From assembly GCF_006542275.1 (NCBI RefSeq), contig NZ_CP041217.1, positions 3,209,501-3,273,500 of the forward strand: a DNA stretch of 64,000 nt, read 5' to 3'. The notes beneath the pieces were generated by a model. The model was not told the DNA's origin. It did no database searches and worked only from the letters and a program-made list of their open reading frames with translations. The stretch is from Saccharibacillus brassicae (GTDB lineage Bacteria; Bacillota; Bacilli; Paenibacillales; Paenibacillaceae). Positions 9,774 to 49,486 of the stretch are shown piece after piece (position 1 is the first letter of the stretch; the number at the start of each line of letters is the position of its first letter). Made by a program: the position numbers and the translations under genes.

Positions 9774-9786
9774 GGACGTATACTTT

Positions 9787-9903
9787 GCGAATGCGAATGC
9801 GAATGCGAATGCGAATGCGAATGCGAATGCGAATGCGAATGCGAATGCGAATGCGAATGCGAATGCGAATGCGAATGCGAATGCGAATGCGAATGCGAAT
9901 GCG
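9787..9903. repeat. hexanucleotide microsatellite, 19 perfect copies of GCGAAT
   Basis: GCGAAT is repeated 19 times without error from 9787 to 9900, followed by a partial GCG. It lies between the palindrome cluster and the 3' end of ccdC. All six frames are open through it, which creates artificial ORFs (Cys-Glu, Arg-Met and Ala-Asn repeats). Such arrays commonly change copy number by slippage. Confidence 0.97.
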
Positions 9904-10508: not shown

Positions 10509-10722
10509 CTATAGGGCCTCTTCTCTGATTGGAATCGGTACGAATAAAGCGGTGGGACCGGGCGTGCCGTAAACAGCCGCAGTTCCAGTATAGCACACCG
10601 AACCGGACGTTTTTAGAGCCGCTTTCCGCACGGGAGATTCGTTTTGGGGTAAGATTAGAAAGAAGAGTACAAATTCCATTGGCTTCCAGACCCGGCAGCC
10701 TTCAACGAACGGAGTGGCCGAG

Positions 10723-11106
10723 ATGACCCGCAAAAAAATTCTGATCGCCGAAGACGAAATGGTACTGCGTTTTTTGTTGACGGAAACGTTGGAAGACGAA
10801 GGATTCGATATCGACGAAGCCGAAGACGGCCGGATCGCGATGGACAGTTTGCGGTACGGCGAATACGACCTGATCATCCTCGATTATATGATGCCCGAGG
10901 CGACCGGAATCGAAGTGTGCCGTTGGCTGCGCGGCGAAGGCGGGGCGAACGCGGACAAGCCCGTCATCCTGCTGACCGCCAAAGCCGAAGGGAAAGACCG
11001 CGAGGCGGCCATGCAGGCCGGCGTCTCGATGTTCGTGTCCAAGCCGTTCAGTCCGGTGGAACTGACGGAGATCGTCCGCAAGCTGACCGAGAGCCGTCCG
11101 TCATGA
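10723..11106 (+). CDS. stand-alone response regulator (CheY-like receiver)
   Basis: 127-residue single receiver domain without an output domain. Acidic pocket AEDE near residue 10, phospho-acceptor aspartate in LIILDYMMPE (about residue 54), the Thr of LLTAKA, and lysine in VSKPFSP (about 106). I place the start at the ATG because GGAG (10711-10714) lies 8 bases before it; the GTG three codons earlier overlaps that site. First gene of a six-gene operon: its stop overlaps the start of the hybrid kinase (ATGA). As a shuttle receiver it could exchange phosphate with the downstream Hpt domain. Confidence 0.88.
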   Translation: MTRKKILIAEDEMVLRFLLTETLEDEGFDIDEAEDGRIAMDSLRYGEYDLIILDYMMPEATGIEVCRWLRGEGGANADKPVILLTAKAEGKDREAAMQAGVSMFVSKPFSPVELTEIVRKLTESRPS

Positions 11107-14100
11107 AGGCGGGCGTCTCCGGAGGATTGTCGCGGCGGATCACGTACGGGACGCTGGCGCTGTTTCTCGTGTTGGGCGTGCTGCTGGCGGCGGCCGAACT
11201 GGTCGTGCACCGGCAGTACGCGTCGTTGTCCGACGGTCTGAACGGACGGATCGAGCGGCTGAACCTGCTGCAGGATACCGAGCGCGAATTCCTCGAATCG
11301 GTCTCTTATCTGCGGGCGTATGCCGCCTATGAACGCGAAGACCTCTACCGGCAGAAGATGTCGGCGCGGGACGGGTACGACCGGCTGTTTCGCGCGCTGA
11401 ACGAAGCGTACGCCGCGGAGACGTCGGGCGGAGCGGAAAGCGTGCGGGAATTGGCGCAGCTGAACGAACGGTTCGACCGCTATTCGATCACGGCGCTGAG
11501 CCTGATCCAGGCGGACGATGCCGAAGCGCTGGCGGACTTGTCGGCTTCGGAAGGCAGTTCGCTCGTGCGGCGCATGGAAGCGGCTTTCTCCAGTCTGGTC
11601 AATCAGGAGCGGGAGCAGATCGAGTCGTTGACCGATCGGGTGCGCACGCTCGGGCGCGCGATTCTGATCGTGCCGGCGCTTGCGCTGGCGGCGGCGCTCG
11701 GAGCGGCGATGCTGCTGATCCGGTATTTGCGCCGGGCGTTTATCGCACCGGTCGTGGACGCCGAATCGGCGGTCGGGCGGATCGAGCGCGGCGAGATCGT
11801 CGAACTCGCCGGCGCCGCGCGGCAGGACGAGATCGGCAGCCTGCTCGGCGGAATCGGGCGCATGGCCGAAGGCATTCGCAGCCGGCAGCATGCGCTGGAA
11901 GACAATCTGGTTCAGATGGAAGAACAGCGCGAAGAACTGGAAGCGCAGAACGACGAGCTGGAAGCCCAGAACGAACAGATTCTGGAGCAGCGCGGCCGGC
12001 TGGAGCGGACGCTGGAGCGCTTGACACGCCGGGAAGCGCAGCTGGAAGCGATCAACGCCTACCAGCGGTCGCTCGTCGGATTGACGGATCTGGGCGATTT
12101 TCTGGAGCAGGCGATCGGGCAGCTGCTGAGCGTGACCGGGCGGGATGCCGGTATGCTCGTCATGCGCGGCGAAGCGGCGGAAGACCGCGGCGCGTCGAAC
12201 CGGCATACAGGCGGGACGGACGAAGAGAACGTCCGCCGCAGCATTCTCGACCGCTTCGGCGAGCAGGGCTACGAAGTGCTGTACAGCGGGGGCTATCCGC
12301 TGTCGGCCGAAGAGTTCGGCGGGGAACCGGCCGGCCCGGCGCTGCAGGCGATCCGGACGAATCGCCCGATCGCGCGGCGGCGTCCGCTGTCGGGCGCGGA
12401 GCGGGGCGCCCACGGCGCTTACGAGACGGCCGTGGACACGTATTATCCGGTGTACGACGGAGGCGGGGAAGAACGTCCCGCGGGCTTCCTGCTGCTGACG
12501 CTGTACGGCGACCGTTCGGCGGAAGAAGGCGAAGAAGAACTGGCGGACGGATTGATCCGGCAGTTCATCGGAGCGCTGTTCGCGCAGCTGACGCAGGCGC
12601 AGCGGCAGCGGCAGAGCCGGGAGATGGAGCGGCTCAACCGGGAGCTGGAACGCGAGAAGCGCAATCTGAGCGACCAGCGCGATTCGACGCAGCAGGTCGT
12701 CGATTCGATCCACGAAGCGCTGATCGTCTGCAGCCCGGGCGGCGAGATTCTCATGTGCAACCGGATCACCGGCGAACTGCTGGACCCGATCTTCCGTACG
12801 GGCCGGAATTTTGCCGACACGATGGACGAGATGAACGAGAAGCTCGGCATCGGGGGCGATGGCGGCGAACGGATTCGCGGCGTGCTGGAATCGGGGCTGG
12901 ACGGCGGCCGGGCGCGGTATGCGTTCGAGCCGCCTGGACGCCCGGCGAAGTATTTCGAAGTGTACGTGCAGCGGATCGAAGACGCGGTCTGGGGCGACGT
13001 CCGCCTGTTCGTGTTCCGCGACCGGACGGAAGAAGAAGAGACGAACCGGCTGCGCGACGAGTTCGTCAGCGTCGTGTCGCACGAGCTGCGCACGCCGCTC
13101 GCCAGCATCCTCGGCTTTGCCGAGATTATGCTGAACCGCAGCGTCAAGCCGGAGAAGGCGCAGAAATACCTGAGCACGATCCACGGGGAAGCGAAGCGGC
13201 TGTCCGGGCTGATCGGGGATTTCCTCGATTTGCAGCGGATCGAAGCCGGCAAGCAGACTTACCGCACGCTGCCGCTTGACCTGAGAACGGTGACGGAAGA
13301 CGTCGCCGCGCAGTGGGACGGCCGCGCAGGACATGCCGTACGCCTGTCCCTGCCGGAAGGACCGTGCGCGGTGCGCAGCGACGCCGACCGGTTGAAGCAG
13401 GTGCTGCACAACCTGCTGAGCAACGCGATCAAATATTCGCCGGGCGCCTCCTTCGTCGACTGTTCCATCCGGCTCGGAAGTCCGTCCCAAGCGGACGGTT
13501 CGCCGGAAGGAGACGGCCGCTGGATTGTCGAGATCCGCGATTACGGCCTCGGCATTCCGGACGAAGCGAAGCCCAAGCTGTTCGGCAAGTTCTACCGCGT
13601 GGACAATTCCGATCGCCGTCAGATCGGCGGGACGGGGCTCGGCCTCGCGATCGTCAAGGAGATGGTCGAAGGCTTGGGCGGCGAGATCGGCTTCGATTCC
13701 ACGCTCGGCGAAGGCAGCGCGTTCCGCTTCTCGCTTCCGGCGCTGGCCTTGGCGCAGACCGCCGGCACCGTGCTCATTCTGGAAGACGACGAAGGTCTCG
13801 GCCGCCTGATCGAAGAAGCGTTCCTCGGCGAAGGCCGCCGGGTCTCCCGTTTCTCCGAAGCGGAGACGGCGCTGCTCGCCCTGGAGCAAGGTCGCGCCGA
13901 AGGGGTGCCGGACCTGTGCGTAGTCGATCTCGTATTGGCCGGCGAACTGGGCGGATGGGACTTTATCCGCCGGCTTGCCGCCGACGGGGAACTGCGCCGC
14001 GTGCCGATCGCGATCTCGTCCGCGCTCGATCCGCCGGACGGGTACGCGGAATCGGAGAGCGAGAAGTATCTGCGCAAGCCGTTCACCGTCAAAGAGCTGC

Positions 14101-14288
14101 TCGCGCTCGGACAGCGGCTGACGGGAGCGGGCCGCGATGCCGGTTCGCTCGCGCTGCCGCTGCCGAGCGAGCCGATGGCGCGTGCTTCGCTCGAACATCA
14201 CGGATTGGACGTACGGAAGATCGAAGTGGAATCGGACTTTGCGATCGTGGAGATCCGGCCGGATGAAGGAGGGGAACGGCATGAATAA
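11103..14288 (+). CDS. hybrid sensor histidine kinase (2 TM, HAMP, GAF-like, PAS, HisKA, HATPase, REC)
   Basis: 1061-residue membrane sensor kinase. Order: TM1 (about 15-36), extracytoplasmic helical region, TM2 (about 185-205), HAMP, a long coiled coil rich in EELEAQN repeats (about 260-320), a GAF-like region, PAS (about 530-640), HisKA with SHELRTPL (His about 660), HATPase with NLLSNAIKYSP (about 773) and GTGLGLAI, then a C-terminal receiver (LILEDDEG, Asp about 941, KPF about 991). Starts at the ATG overlapping the upstream TGA; longer starts lie inside the receiver gene. The layout predicts His-Asp-His-Asp relay through the next gene's Hpt domain. The signal sensed is unknown. Confidence 0.9.
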   Translation: MKAGVSGGLSRRITYGTLALFLVLGVLLAAAELVVHRQYASLSDGLNGRIERLNLLQDTEREFLESVSYLRAYAAYEREDLYRQKMSARDGYDRLFRALNEAYAAETSGGAESVRELAQLNERFDRYSITALSLIQADDAEALADLSASEGSSLVRRMEAAFSSLVNQEREQIESLTDRVRTLGRAILIVPALALAAALGAAMLLIRYLRRAFIAPVVDAESAVGRIERGEIVELAGAARQDEIGSLLGGIGRMAEGIRSRQHALEDNLVQMEEQREELEAQNDELEAQNEQILEQRGRLERTLERLTRREAQLEAINAYQRSLVGLTDLGDFLEQAIGQLLSVTGRDAGMLVMRGEAAEDRGASNRHTGGTDEENVRRSILDRFGEQGYEVLYSGGYPLSAEEFGGEPAGPALQAIRTNRPIARRRPLSGAERGAHGAYETAVDTYYPVYDGGGEERPAGFLLLTLYGDRSAEEGEEELADGLIRQFIGALFAQLTQAQRQRQSREMERLNRELEREKRNLSDQRDSTQQVVDSIHEALIVCSPGGEILMCNRITGELLDPIFRTGRNFADTMDEMNEKLGIGGDGGERIRGVLESGLDGGRARYAFEPPGRPAKYFEVYVQRIEDAVWGDVRLFVFRDRTEEEETNRLRDEFVSVVSHELRTPLASILGFAEIMLNRSVKPEKAQKYLSTIHGEAKRLSGLIGDFLDLQRIEAGKQTYRTLPLDLRTVTEDVAAQWDGRAGHAVRLSLPEGPCAVRSDADRLKQVLHNLLSNAIKYSPGASFVDCSIRLGSPSQADGSPEGDGRWIVEIRDYGLGIPDEAKPKLFGKFYRVDNSDRRQIGGTGLGLAIVKEMVEGLGGEIGFDSTLGEGSAFRFSLPALALAQTAGTVLILEDDEGLGRLIEEAFLGEGRRVSRFSEAETALLALEQGRAEGVPDLCVVDLVLAGELGGWDFIRRLAADGELRRVPIAISSALDPPDGYAESESEKYLRKPFTVKELLALGQRLTGAGRDAGSLALPLPSEPMARASLEHHGLDVRKIEVESDFAIVEIRPDEGGERHE

Positions 14289-16593
14289 ATACATGAATAA
14301 ATATCAGAAGTTGTTTGTCGGTCAAATGGAAGAGAATCTGGGCCGGATGTTGGCCCCCGACGCCCGCACGGACGAACGATCCGTCTATCGGCTGCTGCAT
14401 TCGATCAAGGGTACGTCGGGCACGATCGGGCTGCAGGCCTGGTACGAGTCGGCGCTGCGGCTGCTGGAACGGTTCCGCGAAGACGGCGAGCGGACGTTCG
14501 GCGGAGCCGAGCTGTCCGCCGAGCTGGCCGAATTGTCCGCCCTGCTGGACGCGGCGCTGGAGACGGAGCCTCCGGCCCGGCCTTACCCGCCGCTGCCGGA
14601 AGCTCCGGGCGCCGGCGCACATTCCGGCGCAAGTGCCGGCGGAGGTGGCGGTGCAAACGGCGGTGCAAGTGCCGATGCAAGTGCCGGAGACCGGCCCGGC
14701 GCGGCCGCCGGTTCCGGTACCGGCGAAGAGGACGCCCGAGCCGCCCGCGAAGCGGCGGAGAGAACCGCCGCGGCCGCAAACGGGCCGCAGGCCGGCGCTC
14801 CGGCCGGGTCGGCCCCGAATGCGGGAGCGCATTCGGGACCGGCACCGGAGGCCGGGCCGGAAGCGGGCGCAGCCCCGGAGACGCCGTCTCCGGAAGCTTC
14901 GCCGCCCGGCGGCAAGATCCGCGGACTGGCCGCCAGCCTGCGCGAGCGGCTGGGCCGGCGCACGGAACAGCCGGACGAAGCGGCTCAAGCGGCAGCCGAT
15001 CCGGGCGACGCCGCCGGACAACGCAAACCGTCCACCTACGAAGCGGGGTCTTCCGATCGCGAAGCATCGTCGGCCTTACCGTCATCGGATTTTCCGCCTT
15101 CTGCCGTTTTGCCATCGACCGTTTCGCCGTCAGCTCTGCCGCCTTCTGCCGTTTTGCCATCGACCGTTTCGCCGTCGGCTCTGCCGCCTTCTGCCGGTCC
15201 GCAATCGGCCGGTCCTCCGTCCGCCTCATCGCCGGCCCTTCCGCCATCCGCCATGCCATCGCCCGCCGCCGCATCCGCCGGCGGCAGCTTCGGCACCCTG
15301 CCGGAATCGTCGGAAGGCACCGTGCTGCTGCTCGACGACGATCTGGGGCTGCTCGCCCTGCTCAAAGACGTGCTGGAAGAGCGGGGCTTCACCGTGTTCG
15401 CGACGCCGCGCTTCGACAAGGCGGTGGAATGGTTCTACGAGATGCGGCCGGACTGCGCCGTGCTGGACGTGCTGCTGCCCGGACAATCCGGTTTCGAGCT
15501 GATCGGGCGGCTGCGCGAACTGTGCGATCGGTACATGATTCCGATCGTGCTCATGACGGCCAAGAGCGACGACGAGACGCGTCTGCGGGCTTATGAAGAA
15601 GGCGCGGACGATTTCCTGACCAAGCCGATGAATCCGGAAGAATTCGTCGTGCGCATCCGGCGCCTGACCCGCCGCCGCCGGCGGATTACCGGGCAGCTGC
15701 TGCTCGATCAGACGACCGGCGCCTACGGCATGCCGTTTCTGGAGCGCGAATTGACGCGGCAGATCGGCCTGCTCGAACCGGGCGGCGAGCCGCTTGCGCT
15801 GGCGGCGGTAGAACTCGAAGGGCTGCGCCGCTTCAACGAGCGGACCGGCTACCGGGAAGGCGACCGGCTGCTGCGCGCGTTCTCCGACGCGGTGCGCCGG
15901 CAGCTTCGCCCGCGCGACGTGTGGGCGAGAGACCGCTCGAACCGTTTCTACCTGCTGCAGCCGGGTCTCGAAGCCGGGCGGAGCGCCGAGTTCCTGCGGG
16001 AGATTCTGCAGGCCGATCGGCTCGGGCCGCTCGGGTTCGACGAGAGCGAAGCGATCTGCGGCGTAGTGGACGTCGGAGCCGACGATACGCAGCAGGAAGC
16101 GCTGTCCGGCGCGCTTCGGGCGCTTGAGACGTCGGCGGAGCGTTCCGGCTTGCCGCGGGGGCAGGAAGGATCGGCGGGAACGGCGGCTTCGCGCCAGCTG
16201 AGGCTGGCACTGATCGACGACGATCCGCTGATCCGCACCATTCTGGAACGCCAGCTCCAGAGCCTGGAAGAAGAATACCCGATCGATATTCGCTCTTTCG
16301 CCGACGGCGAAGAATTCCTGAGCGATCCCTGGCATGCCGAAGGGTCCCGCTACCTGCTCGTGCTGGACCGGATGATGCCCCGGATGAACGGCATGGAAGT
16401 GCTGGCCCGGCTGCGCAGCGGCGATTACGCGCCGGTCTACACCGTGCTCATGCTGACCGGCGTCGGCGACGAGCGCGGCATCGCGGAAGCGATCCGGGCC
16501 GGCACGGACGATTACATGACGAAGCCGTTCAGCATGGTCGAACTGGAAGCGCGAGTGCGCCGGCTGATCGGGAAGGTAGGGATGCCTTCATGA
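14281..16593 (+). CDS. Hpt-REC-degenerate GGDEF-REC phosphorelay protein
   Basis: 770 residues. N-terminal Hpt (HSIKGTSGTIG, phospho-His about 40), a 200-residue Pro/Ala/Ser linker with repeats of the type LPPSAVLPSTVSP, receiver 1 (LLLDDDLG, Asp in AVLDVLLPG about 395), a GGDEF fold at about 480-600, and receiver 2 (LIDDDPL, Asp in VLDRMMPRM about 695, TKPFS). In the GGDEF domain the active site reads DRSNRF instead of GGDEF/GGEEF, so cyclase activity should be lost. The inhibitory I-site RxxD (RPRD, residues 543-546) is kept at its normal distance, as in c-di-GMP receptors. The start is set by AAGGAGG, 8 bases before the ATG; it overlaps the kinase stop by 8 bases. Confidence 0.88.
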   Translation: MNKYMNKYQKLFVGQMEENLGRMLAPDARTDERSVYRLLHSIKGTSGTIGLQAWYESALRLLERFREDGERTFGGAELSAELAELSALLDAALETEPPARPYPPLPEAPGAGAHSGASAGGGGGANGGASADASAGDRPGAAAGSGTGEEDARAAREAAERTAAAANGPQAGAPAGSAPNAGAHSGPAPEAGPEAGAAPETPSPEASPPGGKIRGLAASLRERLGRRTEQPDEAAQAAADPGDAAGQRKPSTYEAGSSDREASSALPSSDFPPSAVLPSTVSPSALPPSAVLPSTVSPSALPPSAGPQSAGPPSASSPALPPSAMPSPAAASAGGSFGTLPESSEGTVLLLDDDLGLLALLKDVLEERGFTVFATPRFDKAVEWFYEMRPDCAVLDVLLPGQSGFELIGRLRELCDRYMIPIVLMTAKSDDETRLRAYEEGADDFLTKPMNPEEFVVRIRRLTRRRRRITGQLLLDQTTGAYGMPFLERELTRQIGLLEPGGEPLALAAVELEGLRRFNERTGYREGDRLLRAFSDAVRRQLRPRDVWARDRSNRFYLLQPGLEAGRSAEFLREILQADRLGPLGFDESEAICGVVDVGADDTQQEALSGALRALETSAERSGLPRGQEGSAGTAASRQLRLALIDDDPLIRTILERQLQSLEEEYPIDIRSFADGEEFLSDPWHAEGSRYLLVLDRMMPRMNGMEVLARLRSGDYAPVYTVLMLTGVGDERGIAEAIRAGTDDYMTKPFSMVELEARVRRLIGKVGMPS

Positions 16594-17690
16594 TCGATTC
16601 CGTCGTTCTGCGCGCGATCTGGATCGCCAGCGCCGCGATCGTGTTCGTCATCCTGCTGATCCTGCTGTATCTGATCGAACGCAAATTTCTGCGCGCCCGC
16701 CACCGCGCGCAGGTGGAAGAAGCAATCGGGCAGCTGTCTTCGCCCGATTCGCCGCTCGGCGAATATTTGCGCAGCGGGGAGCGGACGCGCAGCCTGTACG
16801 CGTCCGGCGCCGGGCTGCGCCGGGAAGCGCTGGAAGAAGCGCTGCTGGACCGGCTCGCCGTCAGCGCCTCGGAATCGGAACGCGAGCGGATCTATGTCTT
16901 CGCGGCCGATTATTTTGCCGAAGAATACGCCCATCTGCTGACGCGCAGACGCTGGAGCGACCGCATGAACGCCCTGCTGCATATCGAGAAGTTCCGCATC
17001 CGGGAGCTGAAGGACAGCCTGCTGCGCCGTCTGGGCGAACTCGGCCCGGGAGCCGAAGCGGACGACGAACGGTTCCTGATCGTCCGCTCGCTGTCTTCGC
17101 TTCAACTGGAAGAGACGTTCGACCATCTGCAGCTGGCCGCCGACCGGTTCTCCGAGCTGCAGCTGCTGCAGGTGCTGCGTCCGCTGCGCGGAGAGCTGGC
17201 CGCCCGGCTGATCGCCGACTTCGACGAACTGCCGATCCGTATCCGCCGCTCGGTGCTCGATACGCTGCGTCTCGGCAATATCCGCACGGCCGAAGTGCTG
17301 GCGCTGCTCGAACGCTGCATGGTCTCGGAAGACAACGAGACGCGTATCCGGGCGCTCAAGGCGCTGGCCAATTTCGGCTATATGACGGAGGAAGCGGCCG
17401 ACCGCCTCGAAGCCCGGATGGCCGGCGGCGAGAACGTCGCCTGGCCGGAGCGGATGATGCAGGCGCGCCTGGCCGGAGCCGTGCGCGAAGAACGTTTCGC
17501 CGCGCATCTGGAGCGGCTGATGGCCGACCCGTCCTACGAGGTGCGGCGGGAAGCGGCGGCCGCGCTGTCGGCTTACCGCAGTGGGCTGGAGCGTATTCGC
17601 CGCGTGGCGGACGAACATCCGGACCGTTTCGCGAGAGACATGGCCGTAGAGACGCTGGAGAGGAGAGCTTATGAGCGAAACGTGGGTTGA
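16590..17690 (+). CDS. membrane-anchored HEAT-repeat protein
   Basis: 366 residues with one N-terminal membrane segment (AIWIASAAIVFVILLILLYLI), then a helical cytoplasmic body of HEAT-like repeats, for example VLALLERCMVSEDNETRIRALKALANFG and DPSYEVRREAAAALSAY toward the C-terminus. HEAT arrays are protein-interaction scaffolds and no catalytic motif is visible. Its ATG overlaps the upstream stop (ATGA), and its end overlaps the next gene by 20 bases, so expression is tightly coupled to both the relay protein and the glycosyltransferase. Likely role, inferred from position: linking relay output to the membrane synthase. Confidence 0.8.
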   Translation: MIDSVVLRAIWIASAAIVFVILLILLYLIERKFLRARHRAQVEEAIGQLSSPDSPLGEYLRSGERTRSLYASGAGLRREALEEALLDRLAVSASESERERIYVFAADYFAEEYAHLLTRRRWSDRMNALLHIEKFRIRELKDSLLRRLGELGPGAEADDERFLIVRSLSSLQLEETFDHLQLAADRFSELQLLQVLRPLRGELAARLIADFDELPIRIRRSVLDTLRLGNIRTAEVLALLERCMVSEDNETRIRALKALANFGYMTEEAADRLEARMAGGENVAWPERMMQARLAGAVREERFAAHLERLMADPSYEVRREAAAALSAYRSGLERIRRVADEHPDRFARDMAVETLERRAYERNVG

Positions 17691-19173
17691 ACTTCTGATG
17701 CAGGGCCACCGGATATTCGGCTATGCGATCATGGTGTACGTCGGGCTGTCGGCCGCCATCTACATCTTCATGTACGGCTCGGCCGCGCGCAGCCTGTGGC
17801 GCGACCGCGACTTGAGCCCGATCCAGTACAGCACCGTACTGGAGACGGAGCTTGTGCCGCCGCTGAGCATCGTCGTGCCGGCTTACAACGAAGACGTCAA
17901 TATCGTCGGCAGCGTGCGTTCGCTGCTCGGCATCAATTACAAGCAGTTCGAGATCGTCGTCGTCAACGACGGTTCCAAAGACCGCACCGCCGAGATCATG
18001 ATCGAAGAATTCGACATGACGGAGATCAAGGGCCGCGTGCCGTTTGCCGGGCTGAAGCGCGAGACCAAGCCGATCCGCGGCGTCTACCGCTCGCTCCGCC
18101 ATCCGAACCTCGTGCTCGTGGACAAGGAGAACGGAGGCAAGGCGGACGCGCTGAACGTCGGCATCAACGTCTCGCGCTATCCGTACTTCGTGTCGCTCGA
18201 CGGAGACACGGTGCTGGACGCGGACGCTTTTATCAAAGTGGTCAAACCGATCATGGACGCACGTCCCGGTGAAGAGATCATCGCAACCGGCGGCAGCGTC
18301 GGCATCGCCAACGGCAGCGTGGTCGACAGCGGGTATCTGGACAGCCGGAACGTGCGATTGTCGGAAAATCCGATCGTCATTATGCAGGTCATCGAATATT
18401 TGCGCGGCTTCCTGATGGGACGGATCGGACTGAGCCGGTACAATATGCTGCTGCTCGTCTCGGGCGCGTTCGGCGTGTTCAACAAAAAATGGGTCATCGA
18501 AGCCGGCGGCTACGAGACGGGCACGATCGGGGAAGACATGGAGCTGACCGTGCGCCTGCACGCGGAGATTCGAAGGAAAAAAAGCAAGGCGCGCATCGTG
18601 TACGTGCCCGAGCCGGTCTGCTGGACAGAAGCGCCGGAGAGCTTTACCATTTTGCGCCGGCAGCGGACCCGCTGGCAGCGAGGACTGTTCGAGAGCATCT
18701 GGACGCACAAAAAGATGATCCTCAACCCGCGCTACGGCCGGGTCGGGATGCTGTCGATGCCGATGTTCCTGTTTATCGAGCTGCTCGGCCCGCTGGTCGA
18801 ACTGTTCGGTTACGCGACGGTCATTTTCGGCTTTTTCCTCGACCGGCTCAATATTCAGGTGTCGCTGTCGCTTGCGCTGATGATGCTGCTGTTCGGCTCG
18901 CTCGTCTCGACGGGCGCCGTCTTGTTCGAAGAATGGCGTTTTCACAATTACAACCGGATTCGCGACGTGGTACGCATGTTTCTCTACGCGCTGTCCGAGT
19001 CGTTCTGGTACCGTCCGGTGCTGACGATCTGGCGCGCCCAGGGACTGATCCAGGCCATTCGCGGCAAAAAGCACAGCTGGGGCGAGATGACCCGGGTCAA
19101 CGTGCTCGGCGCAGCCAAAAAGCCGGGCATCGTGCCGGGTCCCGCGGCCGCGCCGCCGAAAAAGAAGGAGTGA
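17671..19173 (+). CDS. processive family 2 glycosyltransferase (polysaccharide synthase)
   Basis: 500-residue membrane synthase of the cellulose/hyaluronan/poly-GlcNAc synthase group. N-terminal TM, the GT-A fold starting LSIVVPAYNED, DGD (about residue 177), GED (about 287) and QRTRW (about 330), the D-D-D-QxxRW set of processive beta-glycosyltransferases, then about four C-terminal membrane segments forming the export channel. No PilZ domain follows the last TM, unlike BcsA, so any c-di-GMP control must come from a partner such as the degenerate GGDEF protein two genes upstream. RBS GGAGAGCTT lies before the ATG inside the HEAT gene. Sugar specificity cannot be read. Confidence 0.9.
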   Translation: MSETWVELLMQGHRIFGYAIMVYVGLSAAIYIFMYGSAARSLWRDRDLSPIQYSTVLETELVPPLSIVVPAYNEDVNIVGSVRSLLGINYKQFEIVVVNDGSKDRTAEIMIEEFDMTEIKGRVPFAGLKRETKPIRGVYRSLRHPNLVLVDKENGGKADALNVGINVSRYPYFVSLDGDTVLDADAFIKVVKPIMDARPGEEIIATGGSVGIANGSVVDSGYLDSRNVRLSENPIVIMQVIEYLRGFLMGRIGLSRYNMLLLVSGAFGVFNKKWVIEAGGYETGTIGEDMELTVRLHAEIRRKKSKARIVYVPEPVCWTEAPESFTILRRQRTRWQRGLFESIWTHKKMILNPRYGRVGMLSMPMFLFIELLGPLVELFGYATVIFGFFLDRLNIQVSLSLALMMLLFGSLVSTGAVLFEEWRFHNYNRIRDVVRMFLYALSESFWYRPVLTIWRAQGLIQAIRGKKHSWGEMTRVNVLGAAKKPGIVPGPAAAPPKKKE

Positions 19174-19180
19174 GCGGCCA

Positions 19181-20398
19181 GTGAAAACGAAAAAACCTTT
19201 TCCCCGCTTCTGGGCCGGGCTTGCGGCGCTGATGCTGCTTGTGCTGCTGCCCTGGATCGTCTGGGAAGTGAAGCCGGCCCGGACGCTGAATATCGCCGTG
19301 CTGGACAAGACGGTCAACGACGACAGCTACCGGGAACACAAAGGCTTGTTCTGGATCTTGAACCAACAGAAATACCGCATGGCGGACGGCAGCAAATATT
19401 TGTACGACCGCGACTATTACGGCAGCCAGCTGCCGACCGGCGGCGTGCGGCCGGAAGAGCGTACGCTTGCGGACATGCCGGCCGATACGCAGCTGATCTA
19501 CGTGGCCGATACGTACGGGCTTGCCGAAGCGCAGGCTGGCCAAGCGGACGAGGGCGAGGACGGCGACGTTCCGGCCAATGCCGGCGGCCGCGCCCCGCAG
19601 GGTCAGGCAGGCGGCATGAAGACGCTCGACGTCAACGTGCTGGAAGCGGCCGCGGCGCGGGGGACGATGCTTGCGGCCGAATTCAATTCGGTCGCGGCAC
19701 CGACGGAAGACGCGGTGCGCGACCGGGCGAGCGCGCTGCTCGGCATGAAATGGACAGGCTGGACCGCCCGTTACTTCCCCGACCTGACGGCGGGCGTCGA
19801 AGTGCCGGCCTGGGTGCCGGGCCGCTACCGGGAAGTGACCGGGCGCGACTGGAATTACGCGGGCGCCGGATTTTTGTTCGTGCAGGAAGACGGCGACCTG
19901 TTCGTACTGCGCGAAGGCGCGGAGACGGACGGAGGCGCGCGCATCGCCTTTACCGAGGCGGGCCGCGAGCGCTTCGGCATGAGCCCGGAGAACGGCTACA
20001 ATTACTGGTTCGATATCGTGACGGCGGCGGAAGGCAGCGAAGTGCTGGCGGAGTACGATTTGCGGCTGACCGGCAACGGGCGGGCGCTGCTCGCCGAGCA
20101 CGGAATCCGCGAGCGCTTCCCGGCGGTACTCCGGCGCGAAGCCGGAGCCGGAGGCGCCGCGGTTGCCGCGGGTGCGACCGCCGCGCCGGCTCCGGGGCAG
20201 GTCAGCTATTATTTTGCGGGCGATTACGCCGATCGGGACGGTTATCCGTTCTGGCGCCGCTACGCGGGCTGGCCGGCGTTCAAAAGCTGGTTCACGTTCG
20301 ACAAGCCGGGCAGCGAAGAAGCGTTCTACTGGGACGTGTACGTGCCGATGATGCGGCAAATTTTGCGCGAAGCGTCCGAGCTGCCGCAGGCGGAGTAA
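19181..20398 (+). CDS. exported/membrane-anchored protein of unknown function, polysaccharide operon
   Basis: 405 residues beginning at GTG (19181), 7 bases after the synthase stop. An N-terminal membrane segment (FWAGLAALMLLVLLPWIVW) puts the body outside the cell. The body begins with an alpha/beta stretch (TLNIAVLDKTVNDDSYREHKG), has an acidic Gly/Ala-rich insert, and ends with YYFAGDYADRDGYPF and FYWDVYVPMMRQ, giving many aromatic residues suited to glycan contact. I do not recognise the family. Its place as the last gene of the operon suggests a role in handling, modifying or exporting the polymer (BcsB- or deacetylase-like role is a guess). Confidence 0.7.
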   Translation: MKTKKPFPRFWAGLAALMLLVLLPWIVWEVKPARTLNIAVLDKTVNDDSYREHKGLFWILNQQKYRMADGSKYLYDRDYYGSQLPTGGVRPEERTLADMPADTQLIYVADTYGLAEAQAGQADEGEDGDVPANAGGRAPQGQAGGMKTLDVNVLEAAAARGTMLAAEFNSVAAPTEDAVRDRASALLGMKWTGWTARYFPDLTAGVEVPAWVPGRYREVTGRDWNYAGAGFLFVQEDGDLFVLREGAETDGGARIAFTEAGRERFGMSPENGYNYWFDIVTAAEGSEVLAEYDLRLTGNGRALLAEHGIRERFPAVLRREAGAGGAAVAAGATAAPAPGQVSYYFAGDYADRDGYPFWRRYAGWPAFKSWFTFDKPGSEEAFYWDVYVPMMRQILREASELPQAE

Positions 20399-20795
20399 GA
20401 ACGGCAGCCGAGAAAAAAAGGCATAAACAAGATCAATCGAAGCATGTGGAGCTCTTTCAAGTCATTTATCGATGAATTCAAAATTTTTTCCTCGATATTG
20501 GCAAAATAGGGATTCCCAAAAAGGGAAGAGCGATTTATAATGCAGATGTAAGCCCTTTCAACACAACCCTGACTTGGAGTCTTCGCTAACGGCGAAGGCT
20601 CTCTTTTTATGGGGAGCGAACGCCGCCGCCGCGCGATTCGTTGCAGAAAACAGGGCGTTTTTTCTAAAAAAATGAATGCGTTCTCTTTAATTTTACGTTT
20701 CTTTTGCCCCCGCAGGAGTTACTTACCGGGAGCCAAATGGGTAATAGAGCGGGAGTCTGTGTGACAGAGAACGATTGGGAATGGGAGGAAAATCA
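20399..20795 (+). other. intergenic region with small terminator-ended unit
   Basis: No gene is supported here. It holds a perfect -10 box TATAAT (20536-20541) without a clear -35, about 40 bases of sequence, then an intrinsic terminator (20577-20607). It continues with a GGGAGTC-containing leader up to GGGAGGA, the ribosome binding site of the GH65 gene. The piece could be a short transcript or attenuator, or only the operon terminator. Confidence 0.4.
20577..20607 (+). terminator. intrinsic terminator
   Basis: GAGTCTTCGC and GCGAAGGCTC arms (one G-T wobble) followed by a T-rich tract; ends the polysaccharide operon or a short leader transcript. Confidence 0.8.
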
Positions 20796-47875: not shown

Positions 47876-49486
47876 GTGCAGACAGTGTCGAACCCACGAA
47901 AGGGCGGCCGCGACGAAAGTTTTTTCAGAACGAAAGGCAGGATCAGCCTGCGTGCTTTATTTTCCGGACTCGTGGTGCTCACTTTCGTGCTGACGCTGGT
48001 CATCACGCTGCTGGCGTCGTACCGCTCGGAGAAGGAGCTGCTCACGGAGCGCGTATTGAACACCAATTTCAGCGAATCGCAGCGGATCGGGCATACGATG
48101 AACATGCTGTTCGTGTCGATTCGCACGAGTCTGTCGGCGTTCACTTCCGAAATGGCGGAGTTGATCTCGGGCGATCCCGAACGGATCATGGAGGAACTGC
48201 AGCAGATTCACGAGAGCAGCGGGTATTTCGAATCGGTGTTCGTGGCGGAGACCGGCGGGAAGATCACGCAGATGCATTCGTACAGGGAGAACGGGGATTT
48301 CGGCAAAATCGACGAGCGCACGCTGGAAGCGGCATTGAAGCGCAGCGAGCCGGGCCTGTCCGTGCCTTACCGCGATGCGGACGCAGAGATGATCGTGCTG
48401 ATGACGGAACCTTTTTATAACGAGGAAGGGGTCTATCTCGGCGTCGTCGGAGGCACGATCCGTCTGGAAGATCCGGCTGTACTGGGCAGCTTGTTCGGTG
48501 TGCAGAACGGAAACGAAGCGGACTCTTACTATTACGTCGTCGATTGCGAGGGCAAGGTGATCTACCATCCGGACAAAACACGCATCGGGGAAGACCTGAC
48601 CGACAGTCCGATCGTGGCCCGGATTTTGAACGGAGCAAGCGGGAAGACGGAAGTGTCCGACCGGAAAGGACGTCCTTTTCTCGTCGGATACACCTTCGTG
48701 CCGGCGACCCGGTGGGGAGTGATCGCGCAGACGCCGAACAGCGTATTGAAACAGCAGCAGACCGAACAGATCCGCGGGACTTTGGTCGCCGTTTTGGTGC
48801 CTTTTCTGATTCTGGTCGGCGGTACGTTGTTTCTGGCCCGCCGGTTGGCGGCTCCGTTCGTCGCTTTGGCCGATTTCGTCGTGCGCGCCGCGGATCGTCC
48901 GCAGGAAGCTTCGATTCCCGTCGTGCGCCGACACTGGAACCGCGAAGCGGATCTGTTGAACCGGGCGGTGATGCGGTCCGTCGGAGAGATGAAGCGGCAG
49001 CACCGCGATCTGACGCACTCCGCGCTGCGCGATTCGCTGACGGGGCTGCCGAACCGCCGCGCGCTGGACGAAGCGCTGGAGAAGCTGGAGGGAGACAATC
49101 TGCCGTTCTCGCTGCTGCTGATCGACATTGATCGCTTCAAATCGGTCAACGACCTGCACGGACATGCGGCCGGAGACGAAGTGCTGCGTTCGGTAGCCCG
49201 GCTGCTGGAAGACACGGTAGACCGGGGAGACCTGTGCGGCCGCTACGGCGGCGAAGAGTTTGTGGCGCTGCTGCCGGGCCGAAGCGTGGCGGAAACGTAC
49301 GAGATGGCGGAGCGTCTTCGCCTGGCGGCCGCCGCCCACGAGAACGCGCTGCACATTCCGGTCACGGTCTCGATCGGAGCGGCTATCTCGCCGCAGCAGT
49401 CCGCGCAGATCGAAGAATTGTTCGAATTGGCCGACCGGGCGCTGTACCGCGCGAAGGAAGACGGCCGCAACCGGGTCGTGATGTAG
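47876..49486 (+). CDS. diguanylate cyclase with dCache sensor
   Basis: 536 residues. TM1 (ALFSGLVVLTFVLTLVITLLA), extracytoplasmic dCache-type sensor (about 60-290), TM2 (LVAVLVPFLILVGGTLFLA), HAMP-like linker, and a C-terminal GGDEF domain with DSLTGLPNRRALD, DIDRFKSVND and the active-site motif RYGGEEF. It should make c-di-GMP from GTP. The position of the inhibitory RxxD site reads DRGD, so feedback inhibition is probably missing. I favour the GTG at 47876, 7 bases after AGGTGAT; ATG 47867 and GTG 47864 overlap that site. Confidence 0.9.
   Translation: MQTVSNPRKGGRDESFFRTKGRISLRALFSGLVVLTFVLTLVITLLASYRSEKELLTERVLNTNFSESQRIGHTMNMLFVSIRTSLSAFTSEMAELISGDPERIMEELQQIHESSGYFESVFVAETGGKITQMHSYRENGDFGKIDERTLEAALKRSEPGLSVPYRDADAEMIVLMTEPFYNEEGVYLGVVGGTIRLEDPAVLGSLFGVQNGNEADSYYYVVDCEGKVIYHPDKTRIGEDLTDSPIVARILNGASGKTEVSDRKGRPFLVGYTFVPATRWGVIAQTPNSVLKQQQTEQIRGTLVAVLVPFLILVGGTLFLARRLAAPFVALADFVVRAADRPQEASIPVVRRHWNREADLLNRAVMRSVGEMKRQHRDLTHSALRDSLTGLPNRRALDEALEKLEGDNLPFSLLLIDIDRFKSVNDLHGHAAGDEVLRSVARLLEDTVDRGDLCGRYGGEEFVALLPGRSVAETYEMAERLRLAAAAHENALHIPVTVSIGAAISPQQSAQIEELFELADRALYRAKEDGRNRVVM

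Follow-up and report, generated by a model that had tools for sequence, protein, structure and literature searches.

Can a phosphorelay act straight on the enzyme that makes a surface polysaccharide? This question is raised by a cluster of six genes in a 64,000-nucleotide stretch of the Saccharibacillus brassicae genome (contig NZ_CP041217.1, positions 3,209,501 to 3,273,500 of the forward strand; the whole stretch is called the window here). The cluster encodes phosphorelay proteins, a HEAT-repeat protein and a glycosyltransferase of family 2 (GT2). For most of the synthase-dependent polymers described so far, gating is attributed to cyclic di-GMP (c-di-GMP), acting through PilZ, PgaD, PelD or YdaK.

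We read the cluster as a synthase-dependent exopolysaccharide system gated by the phosphorelay, with the HEAT protein as cytosolic adaptor, and give this reading a probability of about 0.62. Its core, a membrane GT2 that would polymerise and export a glycan with the HEAT protein bound on the cytosolic side, is strongly supported by sequence comparison. From the gene associations described below we infer direct gating of the GT2 by the relay, and likewise any dependence on c-di-GMP and the type of polymer. The alternatives weighed below and this reading are not mutually exclusive, and their odds need not sum to one. If the reading is true, the receiver-HEAT-GT2 module shows that polymer synthesis can be under the direct control of two-component signalling, and it offers a way to study the uncharacterised surface polymers of many phyla and of haloarchaea.

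The six-gene cluster

The window genome is a single contig of 5.6 Mb. Six open frames lie on the same strand between 10723 and 20398 of the window, in the following order (REC denotes a receiver domain).

10723..11106, + strand: gene 1, stand-alone receiver (Pfam Response_reg, 1.5e-28, and motif)
11103..14288, + strand: gene 2, membrane hybrid histidine kinase (two transmembrane stretches, weak HAMP, HisKA, HATPase, C-terminal REC)
14281..16593, + strand: gene 3, regulator made of Hpt, low-complexity linker, REC, degenerate GGDEF and REC (Pfam: Hpt, two REC, GGDEF)
16590..17690, + strand: gene 4, membrane-anchored HEAT-repeat protein (Pfam HEAT_2, 2.6e-11)
17671..19173, + strand: gene 5, processive-type membrane GT2 polysaccharide synthase (Pfam GT2 families, catalytic motifs)
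19181..20398, + strand: gene 6, N-terminally anchored exported protein (AlphaFold2 model, weak Foldseek matches, fusions in relatives)

Neighbours among genes 1 to 5 overlap by 4, 8, 4 and 20 bases, and 7 bases separate gene 5 from gene 6. The original prediction, made from the letters of the window alone, had named these six genes with their order, overlaps and gap, and open frames and Pfam bear it out. It had also taken the GT2 for a polysaccharide-synthase-type unit. This is supported by Pfam and by the D/DxD/(E)D/QxxRW motifs, which in gene 5 are D100, D177/D179, E288-D289 and QRTRW (331-335), found together with transmembrane stretches. By a crude hydropathy scan, gene 2 has two such stretches and gene 5 three to four, and genes 4 and 6 have a single one. 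In gene 2, HisKA and HATPase_c are over the Pfam cut-offs, and REC (29.9 bits vs 30.2) and HAMP (18.4 vs 25) are just under them. An alternative start is possible for gene 1 at an upstream GTG (10714).

Seven other regions of the genus were read (loci are denoted by L and genomes by G, each with a number). All six parts occur in the same order in five of them (L044 and L046-L049, the last two parts being fused in L046), which indicates that the set is more than chance. The best named match of the GT2 is from Saccharibacillus sacchari (90%).

Pairing of the HEAT protein and the GT2

The pairing of genes 4 and 5 extends far beyond the genus. Gene 6 and the HEAT protein were searched in a sample of 118 genomes of the family, and coordinates were compared by eye. 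GT2 domains are common (the GT2 search matches 116 of the 118 genomes), and only high-scoring GT2s are counted as related. Gene 6 is matched in 32 genomes and HEAT, at E<=1e-3, in 34. Every one of the 29 HEAT matches at E<=1e-15 directly precedes a related GT2, and HEAT precedes GT2 wherever both are found in the 20 family regions read. In 28 of its 32 genomes, gene 6 and a related GT2 are no more than about 4 kb apart.

For a comparison across phyla, named genomes were searched with the GT2 alignment, and the best 80 of 491 confirmed loci were taken (37-90% identical, many from metagenome bins). Their 14 taxon labels, as we assign them, include Bacillota, Bacteroidota, Pseudomonadota, Nitrospirota, Gemmatimonadota, Elusimicrobiota and haloarchaea. 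A HEAT gene lies on the same strand and at most 6 kb away in 75 of the 80 loci. A family-only profile gives 61, which is the stricter figure because the wider HEAT profile, like those for receiver and kinase, draws in part on these 80 loci. Counted in the same way, a receiver is found in 66 loci and the glycosidase-like protein discussed below in 22. Fourteen low-scoring GT2 loci served as control and gave no HEAT, two receivers and no kinase; they represent a single phylum, unlike the 80, and cover about 5 kb per side (one of them just 3 kb altogether). Chance neighbourhood of HEAT and GT2 is rejected, given 0 of 14 control loci vs 75 of 80 related loci, and so is a cluster specific to the genus Saccharibacillus, since it is found across the family and phyla.

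A separate phylum sample of 249 genomes agrees. GT2 scores in it fall into two groups, a high one of 23 genomes (>230 bits) and a low one (<90). HEAT is adjacent or fused to the GT2 in all 23 high-group genomes (17 by coordinates, 6 by reading L144-L149), and no low-group GT2 among the matches listed lies near a HEAT match by its coordinates. Plasmids also carry the pair. Of 14 plasmid loci found, five were opened, one of which (Mesorhizobium) also belongs to the 80; in public annotation the gene immediately before the GT2 is named a HEAT protein in all five, and three have a response regulator further upstream. On a Planococcus maritimus plasmid (L197), genes for CotH kinase and DUF4956 lie upstream of HEAT-GT2.

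The strongest sign that genes 4 to 6 act together is that natural single frames join them, and these suggest that HEAT, GT2 and gene 6 probably form one membrane-spanning complex. HEAT and GT2 share an open frame in L120, L137 and L144 (HEAT 26-49 bits), GT2 and gene 6 in L046 of the same genus, and all three in L148 (1378 residues, HEAT 106 bits). Every one of these fusions rests on a single genome or contig, in most cases a draft, and a fusion is a sign of association that says nothing on the direction of control. The HEAT domain of gene 4 is probably on the cytosolic side, as positive residues follow its single transmembrane stretch.

By these results the HEAT-GT2 pair recurs in many distant bacteria and some archaea, usually with a receiver. 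No description of a HEAT-GT2-receiver system is found in the open PubMed Central (PMC) literature among the matches listed. The earlier suggestion that HEAT is the link between relay and synthase stands as far as HEAT is the regular partner of the GT2, in neighbourhood and in fusions; its regulatory role is proposed here. Co-occurrence with the GT2, the check suggested at that time, is seen across phyla in most of the 80 loci for HEAT and the receiver, and in few for gene 6.

Phosphorelay proteins

The phospho-acceptor residues are all present in genes 1 to 3, namely the HisKA His, the REC Asp, the Hpt His and the receiver Asp (in gene 1 Asp 57, numbered from the alternative GTG start at 10714). 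Where the gene 3-type regulator stands before HEAT, an Hpt at its N-terminus goes with a hybrid kinase nearby. Among 27 loci entered in a table (window not counted), four without the regulator were set aside; a kinase is near 11 of the 14 regulators with Hpt and 0 of the 9 without (Fisher p=3.4e-4, kinship uncorrected). This co-occurrence supports a phosphorelay.

The same parts are found reordered in other lineages. In Bacillaceae (L067, L069, L070) the order is Hpt-REC-GGDEF-REC, HEAT, GT2, gene 6 fused to a glycosidase-like part, REC and kinase. Stutzerimonas L087 has Hpt-REC-GGDEF (with two REC stretches), hybrid kinase, REC, YaiO barrel, HEAT and GT2. A small Hpt gene follows the GT2 on the opposite strand in Mesorhizobium and in a metagenome-assembled genome (MAG) of Caulobacteraceae, and adjoins it on the same strand in a Brevundimonas MAG. 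Four of these loci, which a pattern had picked out, are borne out by Pfam.

A multi-step relay can be drawn from these parts. The membrane kinase would phosphorylate its own REC, and the phosphate would then pass to the Hpt of gene 3 and on to the receivers in genes 1 and 3. Once phosphorylated, these receivers, possibly together with c-di-GMP at the degenerate GGDEF I-site, would act on the HEAT protein, which would switch the GT2 on or off. The GT2 would polymerise and export the glycan. Outside the cell, in this lineage and some others, the gene 6 domain would work with a glycosidase or transglycosidase of clan GH-A-like type (GH, glycoside hydrolase). The original prediction of relay and c-di-GMP directly controlling the synthase is partly upheld, in that the relay proteins belong to the system, as the receiver counts and the Hpt-kinase association indicate; direct action on the synthase and c-di-GMP sensing stay putative.

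Degenerate GGDEF domain and c-di-GMP

Gene 3 has RSNRF (551-555) at the GGDEF position and RPRD (542-545) at the I-site position, in a residue numbering that begins one residue after Met. It is the weakest of 32 GGDEF matches in the genome. A full-length, high-scoring GGDEF domain also lies in the same window, at about 49022-49474 (G000:C1:3258522-3258974). From an alignment of 30 regulators, two near-duplicates and two rows without the motif were dropped, leaving 26. Six of these have intact GGEEF (Bacillaceae L067, L069, L070, L131 and Stutzerimonas L087, L112). The I-site RxxD is retained in 22 of the 26, and in 17 of the 20 with degenerate GGDEF; it is lost in L047 and L048 of the same genus and in L055, all degenerate, and in L069, which has GGEEF. 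As the degenerate GGDEF of gene 3 keeps the RxxD I-site, c-di-GMP sensing by this protein is possible, and a c-di-GMP input is likely in the ancestry of such regulators.

Could c-di-GMP be the main switch? Gene 3 would then bind it through RxxD in the manner of YdaK and drive the GT2, and the phosphorelay would only tune the output. The widespread RxxD, the intact GGEEF of the Bacillaceae and Stutzerimonas forms and the many GGDEF matches in the genome are in favour, and YdaK is a precedent as a degenerate GGDEF protein that binds c-di-GMP through its I-site, according to the portion of PMC7064775 cited here. Against this, the two same-genus regulators L047 and L048 are without RxxD, in some relatives (e.g., L072, L097, L121, L143) only a plain receiver stands directly before HEAT, and the Arg of RxxD is common among GGDEF domains generally. 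On balance we consider a c-di-GMP main switch unlikely.

A broader form of the phosphorelay-gated reading is a tentative one, to which we give somewhat less than even odds. Bacteria and haloarchaea would share a widespread class of synthases, this cluster included, that has a HEAT adaptor in the regulatory place of PilZ or PgaD. Polymerisation would be gated directly by a phosphorylated receiver, without a DNA-binding step. GGDEF and c-di-GMP would be a later add-on in some lineages.

Gene 6, its glycosidase-like partner and the polymer

Gene 6 has no family in Pfam or NCBIfam. Its AlphaFold2 model (predicted local distance difference test, pLDDT, 79.6; predicted template modelling score, pTM, 0.83) matches GH42 enzymes first in Foldseek (best E 1.2e-5), followed by ThuA-like proteins (best E 0.02), with IFT52 chains weaker too; the matches have template modelling scores of about 0.3-0.36 by query length and about 10% identity. 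The fold, which we take to be that of the glutamine amidotransferase (GATase)-like domain B of GH42, is probably GATase-like (GH42 domain B / ThuA-like). The protein has no cysteine and no catalytic barrel. A class I glutamine amidotransferase is rejected for the lack of Cys, though the fold may be similar.

Gene 6 occurs alone, fused behind the GT2 (L046), or as the N-terminal part of proteins of 1008-1125 residues. The GH part of these fusions is also found as a separate protein of 735-802 residues beside HEAT-GT2. No Pfam family is matched by the GH-like proteins in the two fusions and four separate copies scanned. The model of the L070 fusion (1077 residues, pLDDT 87.5, pTM 0.80) has a (beta/alpha)8-type barrel that matches GH157 best (E 4.9e-13, about 11% identity) and, after it, mostly beta-glucuronidases and beta-galactosidases. 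A putative acid/base Glu (E550) is conserved in 38 of 39 sequences and a putative nucleophile (E700) in 39 of 39, near-duplicates included. Fold and conserved Glu pair together predict that the partner of gene 6 is a clan GH-A-like glycosidase. Its C-terminal part is beta-rich and, by eye only, of CBM9 type. Two divergent gene 6-GH fusions (L061:4874-7954 and L062:9660-12686) have altered surroundings of the acid/base Glu, with Lys in its place in L061, and a normal stand-alone GH copy adjoins them.

In relatives the gene of the GH-like enzyme adjoins gene 6 or is fused to it. The window cluster is without it; a copy is found at a separate locus of the genome, behind a DAO/Rieske oxidoreductase gene, and is 41% identical to that of L068 over 744 residues. 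Twelve of 16 genomes of the genus have the protein and four do not. The reading proposed here would give a functional context to the gene 6 domain and to this partner, both of them without a Pfam or NCBIfam match over cut-off in the copies scanned.

What polymer is made? The best NCBIfam model for gene 5 is PgaC/IcaA (TIGR03937, 126.4 bits vs a cut-off of 422.3), and CelA (TIGR03030) scores 43 bits vs 699.1. Two other GT2-like places above 1e-5 are found in the genome. In diderms, tetratricopeptide repeat (TPR) proteins adjoin HEAT-GT2; of five scanned, four match the YaiO barrel in Pfam and the fifth in NCBIfam, and three TPR-barrel proteins show weak PgaA similarity. A nucleotide-sugar dehydrogenase-like gene lies near ten Bacillales loci (one scanned), and GlmS and a sugar-phosphate nucleotidyltransferase follow the GT2 in Halosolutus. 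These models, barrels and neighbours hint that the polymer leans to an amino-sugar or uronic (hexosamine or hexosaminuronic-acid) glycan. A sulfatase/LtaS-like membrane protein cluster near the GT2 (L085, L106, L107, L121, L141, L143; only L143 scanned) may point to phosphoglycerol-type or similar decoration in some lineages. A beta-1,3-glucan suggested by the GH157 match is rejected, as about 11% identity speaks for the fold at clan level only and the neighbours in some relatives point to amino sugars.

The product might also be a wall-attached or secreted heteroglycan, with gene 6 and the GH-A-like protein as transglycosylases that anchor its chains, a surface decoration and not a free biofilm polymer. 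The clan GH-A-like fold, the conservation of both Glu and the membrane anchor on gene 6 and the fusions are consistent with this, as are genes for sulfatase/LtaS-like proteins, nucleotide-sugar dehydrogenase and GlmS near some of the loci. The YaiO-type barrels and weak PgaA similarity of diderm relatives would instead suggest an exported free polymer. We regard surface decoration as doubtful; it is compatible with control by the phosphorelay.

Evidence against the phosphorelay-gated reading

Several results weigh against the reading of a phosphorelay-gated synthase. Only 21 of the 80 cross-phylum loci have a kinase on the same strand and at most 6 kb away, and only 9 have gene 6 there. No receiver is detected in 14 of the 80, some at contig ends, and HEAT is absent within 6 kb in five, three of which start at a contig end and two of which (Nitrospira L082 and L116) hold HEAT elsewhere in the stretch. 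The original prediction was to be refuted by homologues of HEAT and gene 6 that commonly occur without relay genes, and this is partly what the kinase count shows, as do two genus regions with HEAT-GT2 that are without REC and kinase (L045, which is identical to S. kuerlensis L065, and L050, which is also without gene 6). L045, L050 and L066 have the core and an Hpt with no kinase beside, and the kinase of L058 is on the other strand only.

In the family sample, two of the five weaker HEAT matches precede a related GT2 and three (G004, G009, G023) are not beside one. Gene 6 is apart from HEAT-GT2 in four of 32 family genomes, all of genus g7. Seven of the 29 strong HEAT-GT2 pairs have a GT2 that has lost catalytic residues. 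These are L052, L054 and L164-L168, from seven other g7 genomes, which hold HEAT-GT2(-gene 6) with an open GT2 frame and have lost DxD and (E)D in 7 of 7. Among 112 aligned GT2 frames this loss is confined to them, three further rows being split-frame pieces, and they are best read as a pseudo-synthase lineage. The losses of RxxD, the shared origin of the profiles, the narrow control set and the limits of the fusions belong on the same side.

Least probable of the alternatives, in our view, is that the relay serves another process (motility or transcription) and is linked to the GT2 cluster by position only, HEAT being an assembly or stability subunit only: the kinase is often absent near the core, no receiver is found in the stretches read of L076, L106 and L142, and the accessory domain of RiGT2 can be required for synthase activity without c-di-GMP binding (as given in the cited portion of PMC10374906), but Pfam finds no DNA-binding output domain in the three relay proteins, and different phyla, as well as haloarchaea, repeatedly have a stand-alone receiver near HEAT-GT2.

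Comparison with known systems

To our knowledge, the B. subtilis operon ydaJKLMN has no phosphorelay, HEAT protein or gene 6; its YdaM is a GT2. The window cluster resembles it in that a GT2 adjoins a degenerate GGDEF protein whose I-site is kept. It differs in that none of the six proteins matches a BcsB-like partner such as YdaN (by Pfam and NCBIfam models, not by yda sequences). The parallel drawn originally therefore holds for the logic and not for gene content. ydaJKLMN is a presumed exopolysaccharide operon, and its YdaK has four transmembrane helices, in the parts of PMC7064775 and PMC13274460 (operon) and of PMC7064775 (helices) used here.

PgaABCD and IcaADBC are similar in that PgaC/IcaA is the best model for gene 5 and diderm relatives carry weakly PgaA-like barrels. 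However, gene 5 is far below the PgaC cut-off, the six proteins are without a deacetylase or PgaD-like match, and HEAT and relay are present here. BcsA/BcsB and RiGT2 follow the same plan of a processive synthase with D,D,D,QxxRW motifs, and they too have a regulatory part in the cytosol (for RiGT2, in the portion of PMC10374906 cited). In contrast to BcsA/BcsB, there is no PilZ match here by Pfam, the CelA score is far below its cut-off, and separate relay proteins with HEAT would regulate. Membership of the window system in ydaJKLMN, Pga or Bcs is rejected, as scores and domain content do not fit.

Caulobacter HmrABCX is closest on the side of the relay: a hybrid kinase and putative Hpt proteins control a surface adhesin, together with c-di-GMP (PMC11481889, cited in part). 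It works via cellular c-di-GMP on the holdfast, and the cited part of that source describes no GT2 or HEAT gene in the relay locus.

Other features of the window

A divergent frame of 183 codons lies upstream of the cluster, and a same-strand frame of 1004 codons begins 376 bases downstream. Frames of the same length, 86% alike, follow the clusters in L045 and L046. One further feature lies behind gene 6.

20576..20602, + strand: possible intrinsic terminator 3' of gene 6 (12-pair stem, T-rich tail)

Seven terminator-like sites are found in the region vs 9.1 expected by shuffling, so this candidate is weak alone.

Two tandem repeats are also present. A 45-base repeat at 15094-15196 (2.3 copies) gives a Pro/Ser-rich repeat in the Hpt-REC linker of gene 3; the length of this regulator differs among orthologues. 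A perfect hexamer repeat at 9786-9903 (19.7 copies) is flanked by a frame that looks GH1-like by eye and by the divergent small frame upstream of the cluster, and could be a slippage site.

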